Assembly (NCBI RefSeq): GCF_023913515.1
Contig: NZ_CP099393.1
Location: forward strand, 186,001-250,000
Source: Natronococcus sp. CG52
GTDB lineage: Archaea; Halobacteriota; Halobacteria; Halobacteriales; Natrialbaceae
Length of the DNA: 64,000 bases
Direction: 5' to 3'
Shown: positions 991-46,974 of the stretch, piece by piece
Layout: every line of letters begins with the position of its first letter
Position numbering within the stretch: the stretch's first letter is position 1
Translations under genes and position numbers: made by a program
Notes under the pieces: generated by a model
The model's input: the letters and a program-made list of their open reading frames with translations, nothing else
Told to the model about the DNA's origin: nothing
Database searches by the model: none

Positions 991-1903
991 TGTTTACCCC
1001 CAGACTAATTTCGGTATTCTCTCGTAAGTGGAGAACAGTTGGCACGGTAGGTCGATGCAGCAGGCAAGCAAATGCATTTCTGAGGGATGGTCTCCAGGCA
1101 GGAGACCATCCCGTATCGCCTGCGCATGACTTCTTCAGAGCCTTCCAAAGAAGAGATACTCACTCGCCTTGCTGCGCTTGAGGACGAAGTCGAGCAGCTT
1201 CGTGAAGAGAACAAACGGCTTAGGCCAAGCTTCGATGGTACGAAGGACCGCATACACCACCTAGCAAAGACCAATCGACCGATGAGGAGTCGTCGTCCTC
1301 GTTGAGCGAGGACGACGACGAAGAGCCTCGGACTGACGGTGGGACGCCTGGTCGGAACCCTGAACATGATCCTGAATGGCGCTCTGCACCTGAGCCAGAC
1401 CGGGAAGTCCAAGTCACCTGTGACTGCTGTCCAGAATGTGGCGAGACGTTCGACGAGTCGGAGGGCGTCAGCCCTCGACTCGTCGAAGAGATTCCTGATC
1501 CGCAACCTCCAGAGACAACCCAGTACAACCGCCACCACTACGAGTGCGACTCCTGTGGGAACCAGACCGTTGCTTCTCACCCCGAGTGCCCTGACGAGGG
1601 GAAGTTCGAGGTGAGATCGAAGATAGGATTGACCACTGGCTCACCTTTGTCGGTGAGCCAGCGGTCTCCCCGACGAACAACGCCGCCGAGAACGCTCTTC
1701 GTGAGCCGGTCGTTCTCCGGCAAATCATCGGGACACTCCGCAATGACCGCGGGATGTTCGTTCACGAGACGTTGCTGTCCCTGCTGGCGCCACGTCGCCA
1801 GCAGGGACGGAATCCCTATGAGGAACTCAAGCGAGTCGTCCGAGATAACGGGATGGTTTCCCGGAAGCACGCTGTGCCAGCTGTCGAGTCCTCGGGGTAA
1901 ACA
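991..1903 (+). mobile_element. Internally deleted IS66-family element with both ends kept
   Basis: The segment starts with TGTTTACCCCCAGA at 991 and ends with TCCTCGGGGTAAACA at 1903, an imperfect terminal inverted repeat. Inside are the N-terminal and C-terminal parts of an IS66-type transposase, but the middle is missing, so this is a 0.9-kb non-autonomous derivative. I see no matching target duplication (left flank AAGGTACT, right flank CATACAAT), which suggests that one flank was later rearranged. Strong hairpins lie at 1084-1112, 1289-1319, 1449-1487, 1636-1661 and 1777-1808 (see findings). Confidence 0.8.
1126..1900 (+). pseudogene. IS66-family transposase remnant, centre deleted and frameshifted
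   Basis: The N-terminal piece (from ATG 1126) has the IS66 coiled-coil start EEILTRLAALEDEVEQLREE, then slips frame near 1230-1300. A second frame from about 1305 has the zinc-ribbon region with CDCCPECG and CDSCG cysteine pairs. A third frame from about 1612 carries the C-terminal part with the NNAAENALR motif that holds the catalytic Glu of IS66 enzymes, and ends at TAA 1898-1900 inside the terminal repeat. The segment that should carry the two catalytic Asp residues is missing. It cannot encode an active enzyme. Read-through from this remnant into the following dctP makes a long artificial ORF from 1302. Confidence 0.85.
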
Positions 1904-1962
1904 CATACAATATTTTATTGATTCTCCTCTACTTCCGATACTGTCTCGCATCGCCGCCACCG

Positions 1963-1972
1963 TTATATTTAT
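1963..1972 (+). promoter_or_regulatory. TATA box for dctP at 2001
   Basis: TTATATTTAT lies about 33 bases before the ATG at 2001, a spacing that predicts a short-leader transcript. It lies outside the IS66 remnant, supporting a native promoter for dctPQ. Confidence 0.5.
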
Positions 1973-2000
1973 CCCTTCCCTCTACTATTGGCGAAAGTGC

Positions 2001-3038
2001 ATGGTGAATGTGACAGATTGCCGTAGGCGTACAGCGCTCAAGGCACTTGGTGCAGGAGCTCTGGCAGGGTTAGCTGGGTGCACGGGGACAGATGGCGACG
2101 ATATCTCGTGGCGATATACCCACGAACACACTGCCGAACACAATGTTGGACAAGCAGCGGAGGATTTCGCAGACAGAGTGGAGGAGGAAACTGATGGTCG
2201 ACTGTCCATCGAGGTGTACCCTTCCAGTGAACTAGGCGGTATCGAAGAGCAGGTTGAAGGTGTCAGTAGCGGCTCGATCGATATGGGCCACTACGATTAT
2301 TCGGCAATGGCTTCGATGTACCGTCCATTGTATGTGTTTAACACACCGTTCATTTACGAAGATACGGATCATCTCTTGGAAGCATTAGATCCTCGGGAGT
2401 CACCGGTTATCCAGGACATGCAAGACGAGATGATCGAGGAAACCAACATGCGGCTTATCGGCCGATACTACTACGGTCGACGTATGTTGACCTGTGATGA
2501 ACGTATCGAGCATCCTGACGACCTCGATGGAAAGGCGATCCGAGTCGTCCCGAACGACATGTGGATTGCGATGGGCCGTGGAATGGGTGCTCAGCCCGAA
2601 TCTGTCGAGTTCTCCGAACTCCCGAGCGCATTAGCTACCGGTGTTGTATCAGGCCAGGAGAACCCACTTGACACCATCATTGATAACGCACTTCACGAGA
2701 ACCAGTCCCATGTGATGCTGACCGCTCACATGCGGGCACCGATTTCAATCACGGTAAATGAAGATAGTTGGCAACAGCTATCCGATGAAGATCAGGAGAC
2801 TGTATATAACCTGATGGACGAGCTGGGACAAGAAACGGTCGACCGAGGACTGGAACGCGAAGAAGAGCTCCTCGTTGAGTTGCAGGAAGATGAGGGGACC
2901 GAAGTCGTAGGTTCCGGCGAACTCGGTACCGAAGAAGAGTTCGACCGAAACGACTTCAGGGAACCTGTCCAAGAAGAGGTCGAAGAAGAGTTCGATGATC
3001 TGGTTTCAATGATGGACCAGATCAGGGATATGGCGTAG
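2001..3038 (+). CDS. dctP: TRAP transporter solute-binding lipoprotein (DctP)
   Basis: A 345-residue secreted binding protein. The start at 2001 is chosen because it gives a proper N-terminus: a twin-arginine-type CRRRTALKAL followed by a hydrophobic stretch and the lipobox LAGC near residue 27, so it should be exported by Tat and anchored by lipid at Cys. The body has the DctP/TakP fold features: AEDFADRVEEET early, DLDGKAIRVVP in the middle, and the GQENPLDTI segment near the ligand-binding Asn/Arg region. It is followed 54 bases later by dctQ. No dctM follows, which is unusual because P, Q and M normally travel together. The ligand cannot be named; family members bind C4-dicarboxylates, uronates, aldonates and 2-oxo acids. 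Confidence 0.93.
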   Translation: MVNVTDCRRRTALKALGAGALAGLAGCTGTDGDDISWRYTHEHTAEHNVGQAAEDFADRVEEETDGRLSIEVYPSSELGGIEEQVEGVSSGSIDMGHYDYSAMASMYRPLYVFNTPFIYEDTDHLLEALDPRESPVIQDMQDEMIEETNMRLIGRYYYGRRMLTCDERIEHPDDLDGKAIRVVPNDMWIAMGRGMGAQPESVEFSELPSALATGVVSGQENPLDTIIDNALHENQSHVMLTAHMRAPISITVNEDSWQQLSDEDQETVYNLMDELGQETVDRGLEREEELLVELQEDEGTEVVGSGELGTEEEFDRNDFREPVQEEVEEEFDDLVSMMDQIRDMA

Positions 3039-3602: not shown

Positions 3603-3915
3603 TCTCACTGCTACTGAGAAAACGATATTCGACGCTTGTGAAGAAATGCCGCTGCCGGAGTTTGACGTCATCGAGCAGGTGTAGAAGACGACCCCAACCC
3701 CCTGAAGACCGAACCGCGGAGCGCACCAGGCAGGCAATTATCATGCCTGCCCGTGAGAACGTACCTGACGACGGCAAAGTCACCGTCGGCAGCCGGGGGA
3801 CTGCTAAACCTACCGACACTCATCCGGAGCGTCTTTGAGCGACTTGACGAGCCGACTACGAGCCGTTCAATTTTCCTGCTATGAGGAGCCACGGTAGGAC
3901 AACCGCCGAGAGATA
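3603..3915 (+). pseudogene. Transposase-like remnant, frameshifted, family not identified
   Basis: Two frames join into a coding-like stretch. One begins after the dctQ stop and reads ATEKTIFDACEEMPLPEFD. The next, from about 3682, contains TEPRSAPGRQLSCLPVRTYL and SAAGGLLNLPTLIRSVFERL before a stop. I do not recognise the family with certainty. The segment has a perfect 8-bp hairpin (3729-3736 with 3744-3751), the same peculiarity as the clear transposase remnants in this window, so a mobile-element origin is my inference. Confidence 0.4.
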
Positions 3916-3929
3916 GTAGGAGATGATTG

Positions 3930-4830
3930 AATCACGCAGTGACCGAGACCAGGATTGGTCGTGAAATCTGCTCGAGTATGTAAGTCGTCAAAGCGAGCGA
4001 AACTCCCGATGAAGGTGTCGAGGTCGTCGTTGACGAAAATGCTGCAGCGGCGGATCCGATACTTCCGATCAATCGGATCAAACTGTACACCATTTTTGAC
4101 GGTGTGATAGAGAGTGGGCTCTCGAAGATACTGGTGATCGGTATAGGGAAGCTGTGCAGCACAAAAACCGGTCTCGAGTGGGCAATCGATTGGAGTTCTC
4201 AGAACCTGATTCTCGAAATCACTGGACAATTATTGATGATCTGACATTTGTCAGTGGCGTCGCCGTCGTTGAGGACCAGTACGACAAGACGGCTCTCATC
4301 AAGGGAATCCGCCCGGAGTGCCTTCTCGACCGAGAAGCGGAATTGCTGGAGGCGATATACAAGCTCATGCCGACAATTCCATTCGACGAAGTCGACGTTC
4401 TCGTTTTGGACTGCCAAGACATGAGTAGACATGGCTCAATACAAACGTCATCGATTGATAACTGTTTACGACCAACGAACCCCGAGCTCCCGGACATCAA
4501 GCTCTCATCCGCGGACTCACCGAAACGACCCAGAACGCAATGAGTATGGAATCCTCGGACTTTGTTTACTCAGACACCTCCGACGAACTAAACAATGATG
4601 GTACGTTGATAAACGCGATTACTGCAAACACGATTCGAGGAATTTTACTGCCACCCATCGTCGAAACGGATCATGCGGAACTGATCGCATCGCTCTTGAG
4701 AATCGGTGTCGTCGATTCGGTTGAGGTTCGAGTGCCTTGAGCAGCAGACACGATGCACCTCGGCACGCTGGACGTATCTCAGGCGCTTATAAGGAGGGGT
4801 GTCAATACGACGGTCTCCGGGTAGTCAGGG
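3930..4830 (+). pseudogene. Decayed LarA-like (DUF2088) racemase gene, 5'-truncated
   Basis: Translating successive frames gives a clear relative of the intact protein at 24376-25701 from about its residue 120 onward. Matching blocks include INRIKLYTIFDGVIESGLSK (intact copy VNRVKVHTDFNGPVESGLSK), VSGVAVVEDQYDKTALIKGI (intact VGGIALLENAADRAAHIEGI), and a C-terminal part around 4500-4740 with LINAITANTIRGILLP. At least three frameshifts and one in-frame stop separate the blocks, and the N-terminal third is missing. The active-site His of the KVH motif has become Tyr here (KLY), so it was probably already drifting. It cannot make a working enzyme. From about 4780 to 4990 the minus strand carries another coding-like scrap that I do not recognise. 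Confidence 0.75.
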
Positions 4831-5959: not shown

Positions 5960-6535
5960 CCTAACCCTTGAGGTCTTTGTATTTCTCCGGAGGTATCATC
6001 GACGATGTTGGCCTTATTTGTGACCTGACTGAATCGAGATGTGACTTCATCAGCGATCGACGTGATTTTCTCGACGGGCGCATACAGGTCGTTCATCTCA
6101 TTGTAGGCCTGCTGATACCGTTCGTTTTGCTCCGACGCCGCGGCGCGATTTCTTCGATCGAGTGGCTTACATCGTCGCTTGCGCGTTCGATCGCTCCGAC
6201 ACGCTCAATTGCATCCGCACTGGTTCTCTCGATATCTTCCGCTAACTTCTGAATGTTGACGATCGTCTGCTTGAGGTCCGTGAGCATCTCGTTGAATGCG
6301 CCGGCGATATCCTCGAAGGGCTTCGTTGTTGACGTCCCCGTCGTAGCGTTGTGTGAAATCGCCGTCGGCAGGTCGAGGCCTAACCTCACCGCACTCATTA
6401 GCTTTCTGTCCGAGACGGGTAACAACCTCCTCAGATTCCCGATAGACTTCGGCTGCATTTTTCTGTGTAGCTTCACCCTCGGCCTTCGAGCCCTGGATAT
6501 TTTCGATCGCTCTTGTGGCGTAGATTGTTGGTGAG
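5960..6535 (-). pseudogene. Haloarchaeal transducer (MCP/Htr) remnant
   Basis: Several minus-strand frames together read as the HAMP-containing part of a methyl-accepting transducer: VADGDFTQR-like sequence, PFEDIAGAFNEMLTDLKQTI, then DIERTSADAIERVGAIERASDDVSHSIEEI. A further frame gives QAYNEMNDLYAPVEKITSIA and ends near 5960. Frame changes occur near 6330 and 6140. The sensor domain and the distal signalling domain are missing. It is joined on its upstream side to an IS1595 remnant, so a chimeric ORF across both is an artefact. Confidence 0.65.
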
Positions 6536-6589
6536 GCACAGTGCAGTTTCGAGGATAGTTTTGAGCGCTTCTTTCCCTGTTTTTCGATA

Positions 6590-7020
6590 GACACGACGGC
6601 GTCGCTAGAAAGCACGGAGATACGGTGTAAGTTTGTCTTTGGGGATACCTCGATGGGGCGAGAAGCTCAGTCGCACCGGCGACCCCTGGCTCTCGCAGGT
6701 AGAACGTCTCCATCTGCGTATTCGCCCTCGCCGTGAACGACGTATTAGCGGTCGAATGCGTCGTCCTTGTCCAGCGGTTCGTACGCTGAAAGGCGTTAGT
6801 ATAGAAGGTGAGCAACTCCTGCTGACGGTCAGCCAGCAGGAGTCGAATCGTCGATTCGTCTATGGCTTTCGCTGGGATCACGTAGCGATTTCCGGTGACA
6901 CGGTCAACCAGAATGAACACCGGTGGCTTATCCTCGTGATACGTTCCGCGTATAGAGAGTTCGAGACGACTGAGATAAGCGGTTATCGGTCGCGACCAAC
7001 CGCGACCGACCACCTCTATC
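6590..7020 (-). pseudogene. IS1595-family transposase remnant
   Basis: The minus strand here is a truncated, frameshifted relative of the intact transposase at 30873-31757. Shared stretches include DKPPVFILVDRVTGNRYVIP, DESTIRLLLADRQQE and the tail region after LREPGVAGATELL (other frame). The zinc-ribbon N-terminus is missing. The segment keeps a hairpin at 6813-6826/6832-6845 at the same place in the gene as in the intact copy, with compensating base changes (see findings). Confidence 0.8.
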
Positions 7021-20085: not shown

Positions 20086-20293
20086 CGGCCATCGCGGAGA
20101 TCTCGGAAGGCGCAGTGAGGCACCCTCCGGTATTGAGGCTGACTCCAATTAACGTGATCGCACCTGAGCAATCAGACCAGCAGACTCCCGAATTGAAAAG
20201 GATTCACGACTGGTAAAAACGACGCTAAACCGATGTAGCTAATCTTGTTTTCACGGAATGTCAAATCGAGTTCAGTGCACTCGCATCCCAGTG

Positions 20294-20453
20294 TCTCACC
20301 CGGCGCATCCCCGACGCAGCGACCCTCCGTATGGAGGTCGTTGCGTGGGAGCAACATTGGAACGAGTCAACTACCTCTATCGACTGGCAGTTCTCAACCA
20401 CAAACGTTCGGACGAAACTCCGAACGCTCTATCCTGTCTCAAATGATACTTGA
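20294..20453 (+). pseudogene. IS630-type transposase C-terminal remnant
   Basis: The plus strand reads TRRIPDAATLRMEVVAWEQH, then STTSIDWQFSTTNVRTKLRT and LYPVSNDT before TGA at 20453. This is the typical C-terminus of haloarchaeal IS630-type transposases (W..ERN...I.W.FTT..AR.KL..LYP). Upstream parts are absent. It contains a hairpin, 20316-20328 with 20333-20344 (one bulge, one G-T pair). Confidence 0.65.
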
Positions 20454-20699
20454 AGCAACAATAGTTAGGCCGGCTTGAGAAGTGAGCAGGTTGTAGCACT
20501 ATGTTGGACGCTCGTAAACCTGCTCAGCGAGTACTACGCGTCGGAATTTGATGAAGTTGGCGTGAGCGGACGACGACGCCCGCCAGAGGGTGCGCCGTTC
20601 GCCTTCACTCTCCCGGATACTCGCTTCGAGAGACACAAGCGAATCTTTGCTCAATGGGTCTAGAGTGACCTCGTCAACCAATTTGGCACTGATCATGTC

Positions 20700-21165
20700 G
20701 GCTAGGTGATGGCGTGCCTGAAACGCCATCAGCGTATCCGTCGCGGATCGCCATTGATGTGGCTGCTGTCAAGATCAACGGCGACTGGTCTTGGGTATAT
20801 ACTGCAATAGACGCCGAGTCAAAGCTGACTCTTGACGCCGCAGTCTTTGGATAACGAGGCTCCAAACCAGCCGCCGCATTCCCGCACCGTTTGACCGAAA
20901 AACACGATCCCTCCGACACCGTGTTTCTCGTCGATGGCTACGGCTGTCTGGCTGACCTCTGTCGATTAGAACTTGTGCAGCCAGATCGACTATATTAGTT
21001 GGAACCTGATCGAAAAATGGATTCACACTCTCAAAATACGTGTTGATCGCTTCCATAATTCGTGGATGGCAGTCGGGCCAGTATCAGAGAATGGCTTGAT
21101 CAGTTCGTACACTACTACACACAACGGCCACATCAGTCACTCAACGGACAGGCGCTAGCGAAGGT
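20700..21165 (+). pseudogene. IS6-type transposase remnant
   Basis: Across two frames the plus strand gives VKINGDWSWVYTAIDAESKL, TEKHD.SDTVFLVDGYG, NLIEKWIHTLK.RVDRFHNS and QFVHYYTQRPHQSLNGQA. These are the DDE-domain blocks of IS6-type haloarchaeal transposases, in order, but with stops near 20855 and 20995 and frame changes. The N-terminal helix-turn-helix is not recognisable. A perfect 9-bp hairpin lies at 20707-20715/20723-20731. Confidence 0.75.
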
Positions 21166-21187
21166 GCTAAACTACTTGACTTCGCAC

Positions 21188-21800
21188 CTATATGTACAGG
21201 TCCTCCACATCGTGCATGAGATAGTCGATGCTTCGAGATGGGCTAGCGAGAGCCCAGGAAAGGATATTTTGCAGAGTTTCTCGAAACGAGAGTTTGAGAT
21301 TGACTTGAAAGGACGTCGCTCGTGAAAGCACTGTTCCCAGAGCGCTTTGTGCAGCACCGAGCTTCAGAAGATTGTAGCTGACCATCAGCAGGTGCCAGTG
21401 GCGACTGGCACCTGTGTCACTTCGCAAGTCGCAGTCTCCCAATGGCTCGCTGGTGCGTCGATCTTAGTGCTCACAATGTACTTGATGCTCAACTCATCGT
21501 CTTCGTCGTCCGGCTCTTTCTTCGTGATCAGCACCTACCGGTCCCAGTTTCGACACTGCGAGCTTCTTCGTCCAGATGTGGTAGGTCTCGCTATCGACAG
21601 TTCATGGCTGCGTGTCGATGCGCTCACGTAGCGCATCAACGCGCAACCGTTCCCCTGCGTACATCACAGTGCGATCGTTCTTGATCAAAGACATCCATTC
21701 TTTGGAGTAGCCTTCGAGATGGTCGATAACTTCTCCCGAACAATACGTCAAAACGACGGAAGATGCGGGTGAACTTGTTGGAACGTTTGCTGATGCCTGA
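21188..21800 (-). pseudogene. IS4-type transposase C-terminal half, frameshifted
   Basis: Minus-strand frames read EVIDHLEGYSKEWMSLIKND, GERLRVDALRERIDTQP, ETYHIWTKKLAVSKLG, LSIKYIVSTKIDAPASHW and RHWHLLMVSYNLLKLGAAQS. This is the second half of the common haloarchaeal DDE transposase that starts ITSFLxxxxxLEYFSTRQ; the start of such a gene survives separately at 29078-29444. There is at least one frameshift near 21470. Hairpins lie at 21389-21399/21404-21414 (11 bp) and 21617-21624/21630-21637 (8 bp). Confidence 0.75.
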
Positions 21801-30522: not shown

Positions 30523-30790
30523 GGTTCATTTTCTTTCGTATCGCCAGATAAAGATTGTGTTGAATACCCATCTGTCCCGCCGATTATGATGATTTCGTAG
30601 TGAGCGAGCTATCGGTAGCAACAGTCGCTATCACACGAGCACTGCTCTTCGAACGTCTCCGTACTCAGGTGCTCCGTAATGGTGGTATCCATGGAGAGAC
30701 GTCGTCTCGGCGTTCCGCCATCACCCCAGCTACGCAGTGGAAAGATAGAGACTCCTCACCATGGACCAGCGTCTTTTCTTTTCGCTCTTC

Positions 30791-31772
30791 CGTAGGAGAT
30801 TGTTGATACTGCTGAGCTGTCGCTGTAGAGTCGAAGAGGACAAGGGCACCGCGTTAGCGGTGCCCGACACGGATGATTCCGCTAGATGTATTTGGGTCGG
30901 AATCGGTCGCAGCGGACCTGCTCCAACAGGTTCGCTGGCGTGACGGTGTTACCTGTCCTCGCTGCCGTTCTGACCTCACGGTCAGAAACGGCAGCTATGG
31001 GCACTTTCAGCGGTATCTCTGTAAGGATTGCGACCGCACATTCAACGATAAGACGGGCACGATTTTTGCTCACTCGAAGATTGCGCTCCGCCGGTGGTTG
31101 TTCTCGATCTACGCGTTTCTCCGGTTTAACACGAGTCTCCGGCAGCTACAGTGCGAGATCGAGGTGACACACAAGACGATCCACCGGCGCATCGAGCGCT
31201 TCGCCAGAGCGCTCGATGCGCCTTCCCTCGATCTCGTCGGGCCGGTCGAAATTGACGAAGTGTACGTATCTGCTGGAAAGAAAGGCCGCGAGCGCGACCA
31301 AGAGTCGCGCTCGCGTGGTCTCTCCACGCGTGGGCGCGGAACGTATGATGGCGACAAGCCACCCGTGTTTATTCTCGCTGATCGCGGGACGGGACAGCGG
31401 TACGTGATCCCGGCGAAAGCCGCTGACGAATCGACGATTCGACTCCTCTTGGCGGTCCGCCAAGAGGAGTCGCTGACCGTCTATACTGACGGCTTTCGAG
31501 CGTACGAGCCACTTGAAGAGGACGACGCATTCACTCGTGAATACGTCGTCCACAGTGACAGTGAATACGCCGACGAAGAGGTCCACGTTAATACCTGTGA
31601 GAGCCACGCGTCGCTGACGCGACGGTGGCTCTCGCCACATCGAGGTATCTCGAAAAATAAGCTAACACAGTATCTCAGGGCATTCCAACTCCGCCAAGAA
31701 TTATATCGAAAGCCGGGAAGAGACGCACTCAAACACGCTATTCAAGCGACTCTCTGAAATCAACAAGTGCTA
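30791..31772 (+). mobile_element. IS1595-family insertion sequence
   Basis: The intact transposase at 30873-31757 is flanked by a short inverted pair: GTAGGAGATTGTTGAT at 30792-30807 and ATCAACAAGTGCTAC at 31759-31773 (reverse complement GTAGCACTTGTTGAT), sharing GTAG and TTGTTGAT. These are candidate ends; exact borders and a target duplication are not certain. The element contains at least seven strong hairpins (see findings). A decayed relative lies at 6590-7020. Confidence 0.7.
30873..31757 (+). CDS. IS1595-family transposase
   Basis: A complete 294-residue transposase. The N-terminal zinc ribbon has CPRCRSDL and CKDCDRTF pairs, followed by a helix-turn-helix-like region LRQLQCEIEVTHKTIHRRIE. 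The ISXO2-type catalytic domain shows the acidic triad: Asp in GPVEIDEVYVS, Asp in VYTDGFRAYE and the third acid in VHVNTCESH. The C-terminal RGISKNKLTQYLRAFQLRQE is typical of the family. No stop or frameshift is seen, so it may still be active. A perfect 9-bp hairpin (30844-30865) ends seven bases before the ATG and could affect translation. Confidence 0.92.
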   Translation: MIPLDVFGSESVAADLLQQVRWRDGVTCPRCRSDLTVRNGSYGHFQRYLCKDCDRTFNDKTGTIFAHSKIALRRWLFSIYAFLRFNTSLRQLQCEIEVTHKTIHRRIERFARALDAPSLDLVGPVEIDEVYVSAGKKGRERDQESRSRGLSTRGRGTYDGDKPPVFILADRGTGQRYVIPAKAADESTIRLLLAVRQEESLTVYTDGFRAYEPLEEDDAFTREYVVHSDSEYADEEVHVNTCESHASLTRRWLSPHRGISKNKLTQYLRAFQLRQELYRKPGRDALKHAIQATL

Positions 31773-31836
31773 CGCAAGAGCGTTTATTTTTGTATGCCCG
31801 CCGGCCCCGTTAGTGAGCTCGACATCGGACTCGAAT

Positions 31837-46847: not shown

Positions 46848-46974
46848 CTATAGTAGCCACTGAAAGTCAGTGCACACCCGATCGCACGACGGGAGCGCGG
46901 TTCTCGCTTGCTTCGCTCGCTCCGAACCGCGGACAGTGCGATCGGCGTGGAAACCGTTTCAGTTGGTACTATAG
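46848..46974. repeat. Palindromic MITE-like repeat, 127 bp
   Basis: The ends are inverted copies: CTATAGTAGCCACTGAAA at 46848 and, on the other strand from 46974, CTATAGTACCAACTGAAA (16 of 18 bases). A second inner pair, CCGATCGCAC on each arm, extends the symmetry. No coding capacity. It lies in the spacer between two genes whose starts both face it. The sequence recalls a repeat I believe is spread through several haloarchaeal genomes, but I cannot check copy number here. Confidence 0.75.

Follow-up and report, generated by a model that had tools for sequence, protein, structure and literature searches.

The DNA analysed here, hereafter the window, is a 64 kb stretch (C3:186001-250000) of a three-contig, 4.74 Mb genome in which genes were called mechanically. 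Its transposon-derived features and their hairpins, together with one decayed host gene, are as follows.

1084..1112, plus strand: 12 bp hairpin at the edge of the IS66 remnant
1090..1910, plus strand: IS66 (ISH10/ISNpe24-like) remnant, transposase sense on this strand
1289..1319, plus strand: 13 bp hairpin in the IS66 remnant
1636..1661, plus strand: 10 bp hairpin CTGGCTCACC in the IS66 remnant, equal to ISH10 stem 1152-1177
1777..1808, plus strand: 13 bp hairpin GTCCCTGCTGGCG in the IS66 remnant, equal to ISH10 stem 1293-1324
3605..4790, plus strand: decayed DUF362 / lactate-racemase-domain host gene, containing the 8 bp stem 3729-3751
6505..6951, minus strand: decayed IS1595 copy, ~80% DNA identity to IS1595
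6815..6843, minus strand: 10 bp hairpin ACTCCTGCTG in the decayed IS1595 copy, of the stem type of IS1595 coding hairpin 3
20262..20460, plus strand: IS630 remnant, 3' end of the transposase
20316..20344, plus strand: imperfect IS630 hairpin (intact relative: GCGGCGA..CTCC-GAAC-GGAG.TCGCCGC)
20462..21174, plus strand: IS6 remnant, containing the 9 bp hairpin 20707-20731
21175..21750, minus strand: IS701 remnant
21389..21414, minus strand: 11 bp hairpin CAGGTGCCAGT in the IS701 remnant, kept in intact IS701 (ISHti12 967-994)
21617..21637, minus strand: 8 bp hairpin GATGCGCT in the IS701 remnant, the decayed form of an 11 bp hairpin of intact IS701
30783..31782, plus strand: intact IS1595 (ISH4 group) element, ~1.0 kb; homolog matches end at 30783 and 31783-31784
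30844..30865, plus strand: IS1595 leader hairpin GGGCACCGC-GTTA-GCGGTGCCC, its final base 7 nt upstream of the ATG
30873..31757, plus strand: IS1595 transposase, 294 aa (Pfam DDE_Tnp_IS1595, 3.4e-20)
31186..31222, plus strand: IS1595 coding hairpin 1, 15 bp, loop 7
31287..31315, plus strand: IS1595 coding hairpin 2, 12 bp, loop 5
31440..31472, plus strand: IS1595 coding hairpin 3, 15 bp, loop 3

A first-pass annotation of this DNA had proposed that hairpins mark transposon remnants of several types, and had quoted five stems. All five are there: four are perfect (20707-20731, 9 bp; 21389-21414, 11 bp; 21617-21637, 8 bp; 3729-3751, 8 bp), and the one at 20316-20344 is imperfect. Counting perfect stems with loops of 3-10 nt against a local Markov expectation, we found 27 of at least 8 bp in the 64 kb window (10.1 expected), 10 of at least 10 bp (1.05 expected) and 8 of at least 11 bp (0.25 expected), an excess that rises with stem length. 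The longest stems of the window are not in the quoted stretch but in the IS66 remnant (1084-1808) and the intact IS1595 element (31186-31472).

Of the five hairpins first quoted, three are part of a wider trait: the IS630 stem and the IS701 pair recur in intact relatives, and the IS6 and 3729 stems do not. Intact IS630 has the 20316-20344 hairpin as an interrupted stem with one pair compensated, so that this hairpin, though imperfect, is conserved. Both hairpins at 21389-21414 and 21617-21637 are inherited, standing at homologous positions in intact IS701 genes; the 'IS4-type' label first given to the remnant was wrong, and its family is IS701. The IS6 hairpin is missing from an intact IS6 relative and is attributed to chance. 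The unassigned scrap that follows dctQ is not a transposon; its matches are host genes of the DUF362 / lactate-racemase-domain type, and its stem is at chance level; this decayed gene adjoins dctQ, and its nearest intact relatives lie on Haloarcula and Halomicrobium plasmids. In the IS66 remnant, the stems at 1636 and 1777 agree with ISH10 in spacing and order. A 578-aa ORF annotated as DctP (window 1302-3038) begins within this remnant; the DctP domain starts only at residue 274, and the true dctP start is therefore probably near 2100.

The intact IS1595 element has the ends CGCTCTTCCGTAG...CTACGCAAGAGCG and is flanked by TTTCTTTT / TTTATTTT, a possible target duplication. Copies of its transposase in other genomes are 95-97% identical. 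The leader hairpin covaries among homologs (GGACACCGC, GGGTGACGC, GGGTGATGC), and covariation among the hairpins of this element is greatest in coding hairpin 3, which as DNA has 16 bp arms with 1 nt between them. In none of 10,000 codon shuffles did the transposase gene reach its observed hairpin score. The suggested use of hairpins as a transposon fingerprint proved itself at 6815-6843, where the stems revealed the decayed IS1595 copy, to which Pfam and NCBIfam profiles had assigned no family.

The hairpin pattern in haloarchaeal transposase genes is real, and stronger than the first-pass annotation supposed. Haloarchaeal IS1595, ISH3, IS5, IS4 (ISH8, ISH32), IS66, IS630 and IS701 genes carry 1-6 perfect coding-sequence hairpins of 10-17 bp; the proposal that many unrelated transposon types share the trait thus holds for at least seven IS families. 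In the home genome we scanned both megaplasmids and 840 kb of chromosome (1,343 ORFs) against codon shuffles. The megaplasmid ORFs contain 48 stems of at least 10 bp versus 10.9 expected, and two large chromosomal stretches contain 28 versus 19.4. The top-scoring genes are mostly IS1595, IS5/IS4-type, ISH3, IS630 and IS66 transposases, and stems of at least 12 bp number 16.8 per 10 kb in labelled transposases versus 0.06 in other ORFs, a ratio that is inflated because some transposase labels were assigned after the scan.

Annotated plasmids provided a comparison free of such scan-dependent labelling. On pNRC100 (40-90 kb), hairpin scores are 31-78 for ISH8B, ISH8E, ISH10 and ISH3B, 0 for ISH7B and 0-1 for 24 other genes; hairpins are absent from ISH7B and from two integrases. 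Every transposase gene tested on Natrinema pellirubrum pNATPE01 scores 15-56, and among its other genes 16 score 0 and three score 1-4. Scores are 0-2 for the 25 genes of a Haloterrigena metabolic region. Trait-type hairpins are absent from the haloarchaeal host genes surveyed (~75 annotated, ~1,330 ORFs). Host genes therefore do not equal transposases in hairpin density, and intact IS elements of other haloarchaea do carry the hairpins, the two points on which the original idea had been made to depend.

The trait is restricted to certain IS families of Halobacteria. Hairpin scores are 0 for each of eight bacterial IS1595 genes, 0-1 for four bacterial IS66 genes and 0 for E. coli IS30, IS5 and IS1, so that the comparison proposed with bacteria carrying the same IS families is negative for IS1595, IS66 and IS5. 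Among non-haloarchaeal genes of the same phylum, 17 of 20 score 0, and most methanogen transposases tested are without hairpins. In genomes that we take to be those of halophilic methanogens, stems turn up singly in only a few copies, and one IS enters that count several times. The only strong case that we found beyond Halobacteria is in one methanogen genome, where copies of a single IS5-type transposase share a 13-bp hairpin, AATTCATGTTCTC. We tie the trait to host lineage, since hairpins are absent from bacterial IS1595 and IS66 of similar G+C. The first-pass annotation had envisaged a host- or lifestyle-linked property; the former part stands, and salt lifestyle is no explanation, because the three Salinibacter transposases tested score 0 and the halophilic methanogens show isolated stems at most. 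Within haloarchaea, nearly all TnpB genes are without hairpins, and IS6, originally listed as a carrier, drops out, with no stem of at least 9 bp in 18 of 20 copies.

The alignments drew their homologs from as many as 125 genomes belonging to the same family; these homologs are not independent of each other, and the conservation counts that follow are therefore not probabilities. In the six aligned families (all but IS630), hairpins stand at a constant distance from the start codon, with three fixed-position hairpins per gene in IS1595, five to six in ISH3, three in IS5 and four each in IS4/ISH8, IS66 and IS701. Depending on the family, these positions are held down to 54-79% protein identity. 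Some homologous copies are without one or more of their family's hairpins, and one IS5 paralog of the home genome has no stems of at least 10 bp. The hairpins are spread along whole coding sequences and not confined to the initiation region. By inspection, no sequence motif is common to the stems, which differ among families and within one gene; palindromes bound by a dimeric protein would be expected to share one.

The stems are constrained at silent sites and covary. In five families, identity at four-fold degenerate sites is.83-.95 in stems versus.63-.65 elsewhere, and.54-.74 at the few such sites in loops; circular shifts of the stem labels matched the observed constraint in 0-2 of ~300-520. 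Across 289 stem pairs from six families, 94% of cells pair, and 37 of the pairs have double-sided changes, where shuffling gives 18.6 on average (27 at most) and sliding the partners gives 10-16. Many of these link codon position 1 to the third position of the opposite arm, so that silent changes follow coding changes. Chance or base composition as the cause is ruled out by the Markov expectation, the codon-preserving shuffles and the host genes, and amino-acid conservation alone by the codon shuffles together with synonymous constraint that is found in stems and not in loops. Codon phase was likewise discarded: pairing in the stems is mostly between codon positions 1 and 3, and so it is in chance stems of host genes.

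A replication-associated repair process had also been suggested. As a mutational artefact, hairpin-mediated template switching might make and repair perfect palindromes in fast-copying elements, with no function. Symmetric pairing and the suppression of divergence in both arms would fit such switching, but each hairpin is inherited at a single position across a whole family, and the effect is not seen in host genes of the same replicon, in IS6, in TnpB or in bacterial ISs. Fixed inherited positions and strong synonymous constraint in stems, not loops, speak against a replication-repair origin, and we regard a mutational artefact as highly improbable.

Excess folding is also evident gene-wide. 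Relative to codon shuffles, folding is 13-30% stronger in transposase coding sequences, as opposed to 2% in host genes; the mean excess is 19% for 16 haloarchaeal transposases (z -3.4 to -10.5), 2% for 27 host genes (mean z -0.95) and 5% for 16 bacterial transposases (mean z -1.6). When six transposase mRNAs are folded globally by computation, pair probabilities within the hairpins range over.85-1.0, and hairpin energies lie between -16 and -36 kcal/mol. IS6 has an intermediate gene-wide excess despite having no long stems; its local folding energy is clearly below that of codon shuffles, with a slight lean towards the sense strand. Such folding resembles the GORS of some RNA viruses, in which gene-wide internal pairing also exceeds that of codon-preserving shuffles, but here it is found in mRNAs of DNA transposons and includes separate, long, perfect hairpins whose sites are conserved. 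A compact self-paired mRNA, comparable to the ordered RNA of some viruses, might escape hybridisation-based or nuclease host defence against transposons. The excess in IS6 agrees with such shielding, as does the clade restriction, which suggests a host factor; however, general compaction would not call for stems as specific as these, which are perfect, conserved and fixed in position, and we hold shielding to be very unlikely.

We see an even chance that unrelated haloarchaeal IS families acquired coding-sequence hairpins independently and keep them by selection, the hairpins serving, within the transposase mRNA, as an inbuilt brake on its translation. Folded transposase mRNA would slow or stall translating ribosomes and/or become open to cleavage, abundant transposase transcripts would thereby give little transposase, and the RNA-binding protein SmAP1 could melt the stems, so allowing translation and transposition. 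Haloarchaeal mRNAs are mostly leaderless, and one might speculate that the clade restriction arises because they leave less room for the leader-based occlusion of bacterial ISs. That mRNA is the acting molecule, that translation is affected and that SmAP1 acts on the stems we infer in part from published H. salinarum data (PMC10134880), which were not gathered to test hairpins and whose fit is the reason that we favour mRNA. In that study, mobilome mRNAs are abundant and proteins were seen for 4 of 33, three of these being TnpB, a type mostly without hairpins here. It also describes a ribosome pile-up at the 5' end of one ISH3 mRNA, with SmAP1 and processing sites, and lowered transposition of ISH3 and IS4 upon SmAP1 loss; both families are hairpin-rich here.

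Two observations stand against an mRNA brake: IS6 mRNAs are without hairpins, and the mean strand difference in folding excess over 16 different transposases is almost nil (1.187 vs 1.179). In favour of the brake, the excess is slightly larger on the sense strand in intact copies of IS1595 (12/12), ISH3 (7/7) and IS6 (12/15). A third observation against it concerns the pairs themselves. Were the structure purely one of mRNA, G-U should be clearly preferred, and the lack of such a preference counts against an mRNA-only reading: non-Watson-Crick pairs in stems of intact copies, on the sense strand, include 75 G-U versus 71 A-C cells, arising from 46 versus 36 distinct changes. Third-position C>T and G>A changes in stems are suppressed equally. 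G-U asymmetry was accordingly abandoned as proof of mRNA action.

Because G-U is tolerated no better than A-C, there is room for a role in DNA or in antisense RNA. As DNA, the interrupted palindromes could form cruciforms or single-strand folds that affect the element's transposition, replication or transcription. Tolerance of non-Watson-Crick pairs that is symmetric between strands, excess folding that is on average near equal on both, and a covarying hairpin in the non-coding leader of IS1595 are consistent with this role, but the analysed stems are internal to the coding sequence and not near the ends of the transposon, the families have neither a sequence motif nor a structural one in common, and three families lean slightly to the sense strand; we consider it unlikely. 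If stems were instead needed in both a structured sense mRNA and a structured cis-antisense RNA, paired stem-loops serving antisense control of the transposase, the symmetric G-U and A-C counts would be accounted for. Antisense RNAs over transposases are indeed reported: they make up 58 of the 846 asRNAs of H. salinarum and are also described for H. volcanii (PMC6523106, PMC5892119). The stems run gene-long, whereas reported regulatory asRNAs overlap 5' ends, and long hairpins may themselves yield false antisense or start-site reads, which leaves antisense control quite unlikely.

Convergence of unrelated transposons, within a single host lineage, on one nucleic-acid feature argues for host-specific pressure. 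We lean towards regarding the hairpins of at least seven unrelated families as a clade-wide control layer, whether SmAP1 operates them as gene-wide brakes on translation or, a more radical idea, a factor peculiar to haloarchaea senses them as DNA structures and governs transposition. Haloarchaeal jumping elements would apparently have a shared means of restraint that is so far undescribed.

In the open-access literature we found no earlier account of haloarchaeal transposase genes containing internal hairpins or inverted repeats. RNA control of bacterial ISs (IS10, IS50/Tn5, IS200, ISPpu9) is similar in that structure is tied to the transposase gene and, on our hypothesis, lowers its synthesis; it differs in that bacterial structures in the leader hide the ribosome-binding site, while the haloarchaeal ones occur throughout coding sequences. 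IS1595, the sole family examined for stable structure upstream of the start codon, has it (-28 to -7), and this leader hairpin near the ATG is a likeness to bacterial leader control. The haloarchaeal coding-sequence hairpins, several to a gene, are moreover conserved, and many unrelated families have them. SmAP1 and asRNA regulation of the Halobacterium mobilome (PMC10134880, PMC6523106) concerns the same host group and IS families (ISH3, IS4) and the same combination of much mRNA with undetected protein, and its authors mention hairpin melting by SmAP1; in the portions of these papers available, conserved coding-sequence hairpins are not reported and no structural target is named for the SmAP1 effect. 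Hairpins are also known from haloarchaeal IS elements in IS200/IS605 and sotRNA (RF02656). There, with Y1 HUH transposases and subterminal hairpins, terminal DNA hairpins bind TnpA, and sotRNA is a tnpB 3' RNA, whereas the present hairpins are internal to the genes of DDE transposons. They do not resemble stimulators of programmed frameshifting either, where a slippery site joins two overlapping frames, the IS1595, ISH3 and IS5 genes being single intact ORFs with several hairpins. Rfam families, including sot0042, had no significant match in the window, only a sub-threshold sR55.

The hairpins offer a sequence basis for two puzzling findings of PMC10134880, abundant Halobacterium transposase mRNA with unseen protein and reduced ISH3 and IS4 transposition without SmAP1. 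They also provide a family-independent marker of decayed transposon DNA, and antisense, transcript-end and ribosome-profiling signals from haloarchaeal transposases need checking for hairpin artefacts.

Of the strong non-transposase hits of the home-genome scan, two, on the chromosome, are copies of a dispersed palindromic repeat that is present at window position 46873 (C3:232873) and at ~45 more sites on C1 and C2. Its core is CACACC(C)GATCGCAC ... GTGCGATCGG(G)TGTG, the sampled 1.6 Mb contain ~46 matches to a half-site, and the repeat is REP- or MITE-like. A further strong exception is a multi-copy, mobile-looking stretch on C2 (C2:165206-165696), an unannotated haloarchaeal sequence near an IS6 that contains a 16-bp perfect hairpin and is probably an undescribed mobile element or remnant.
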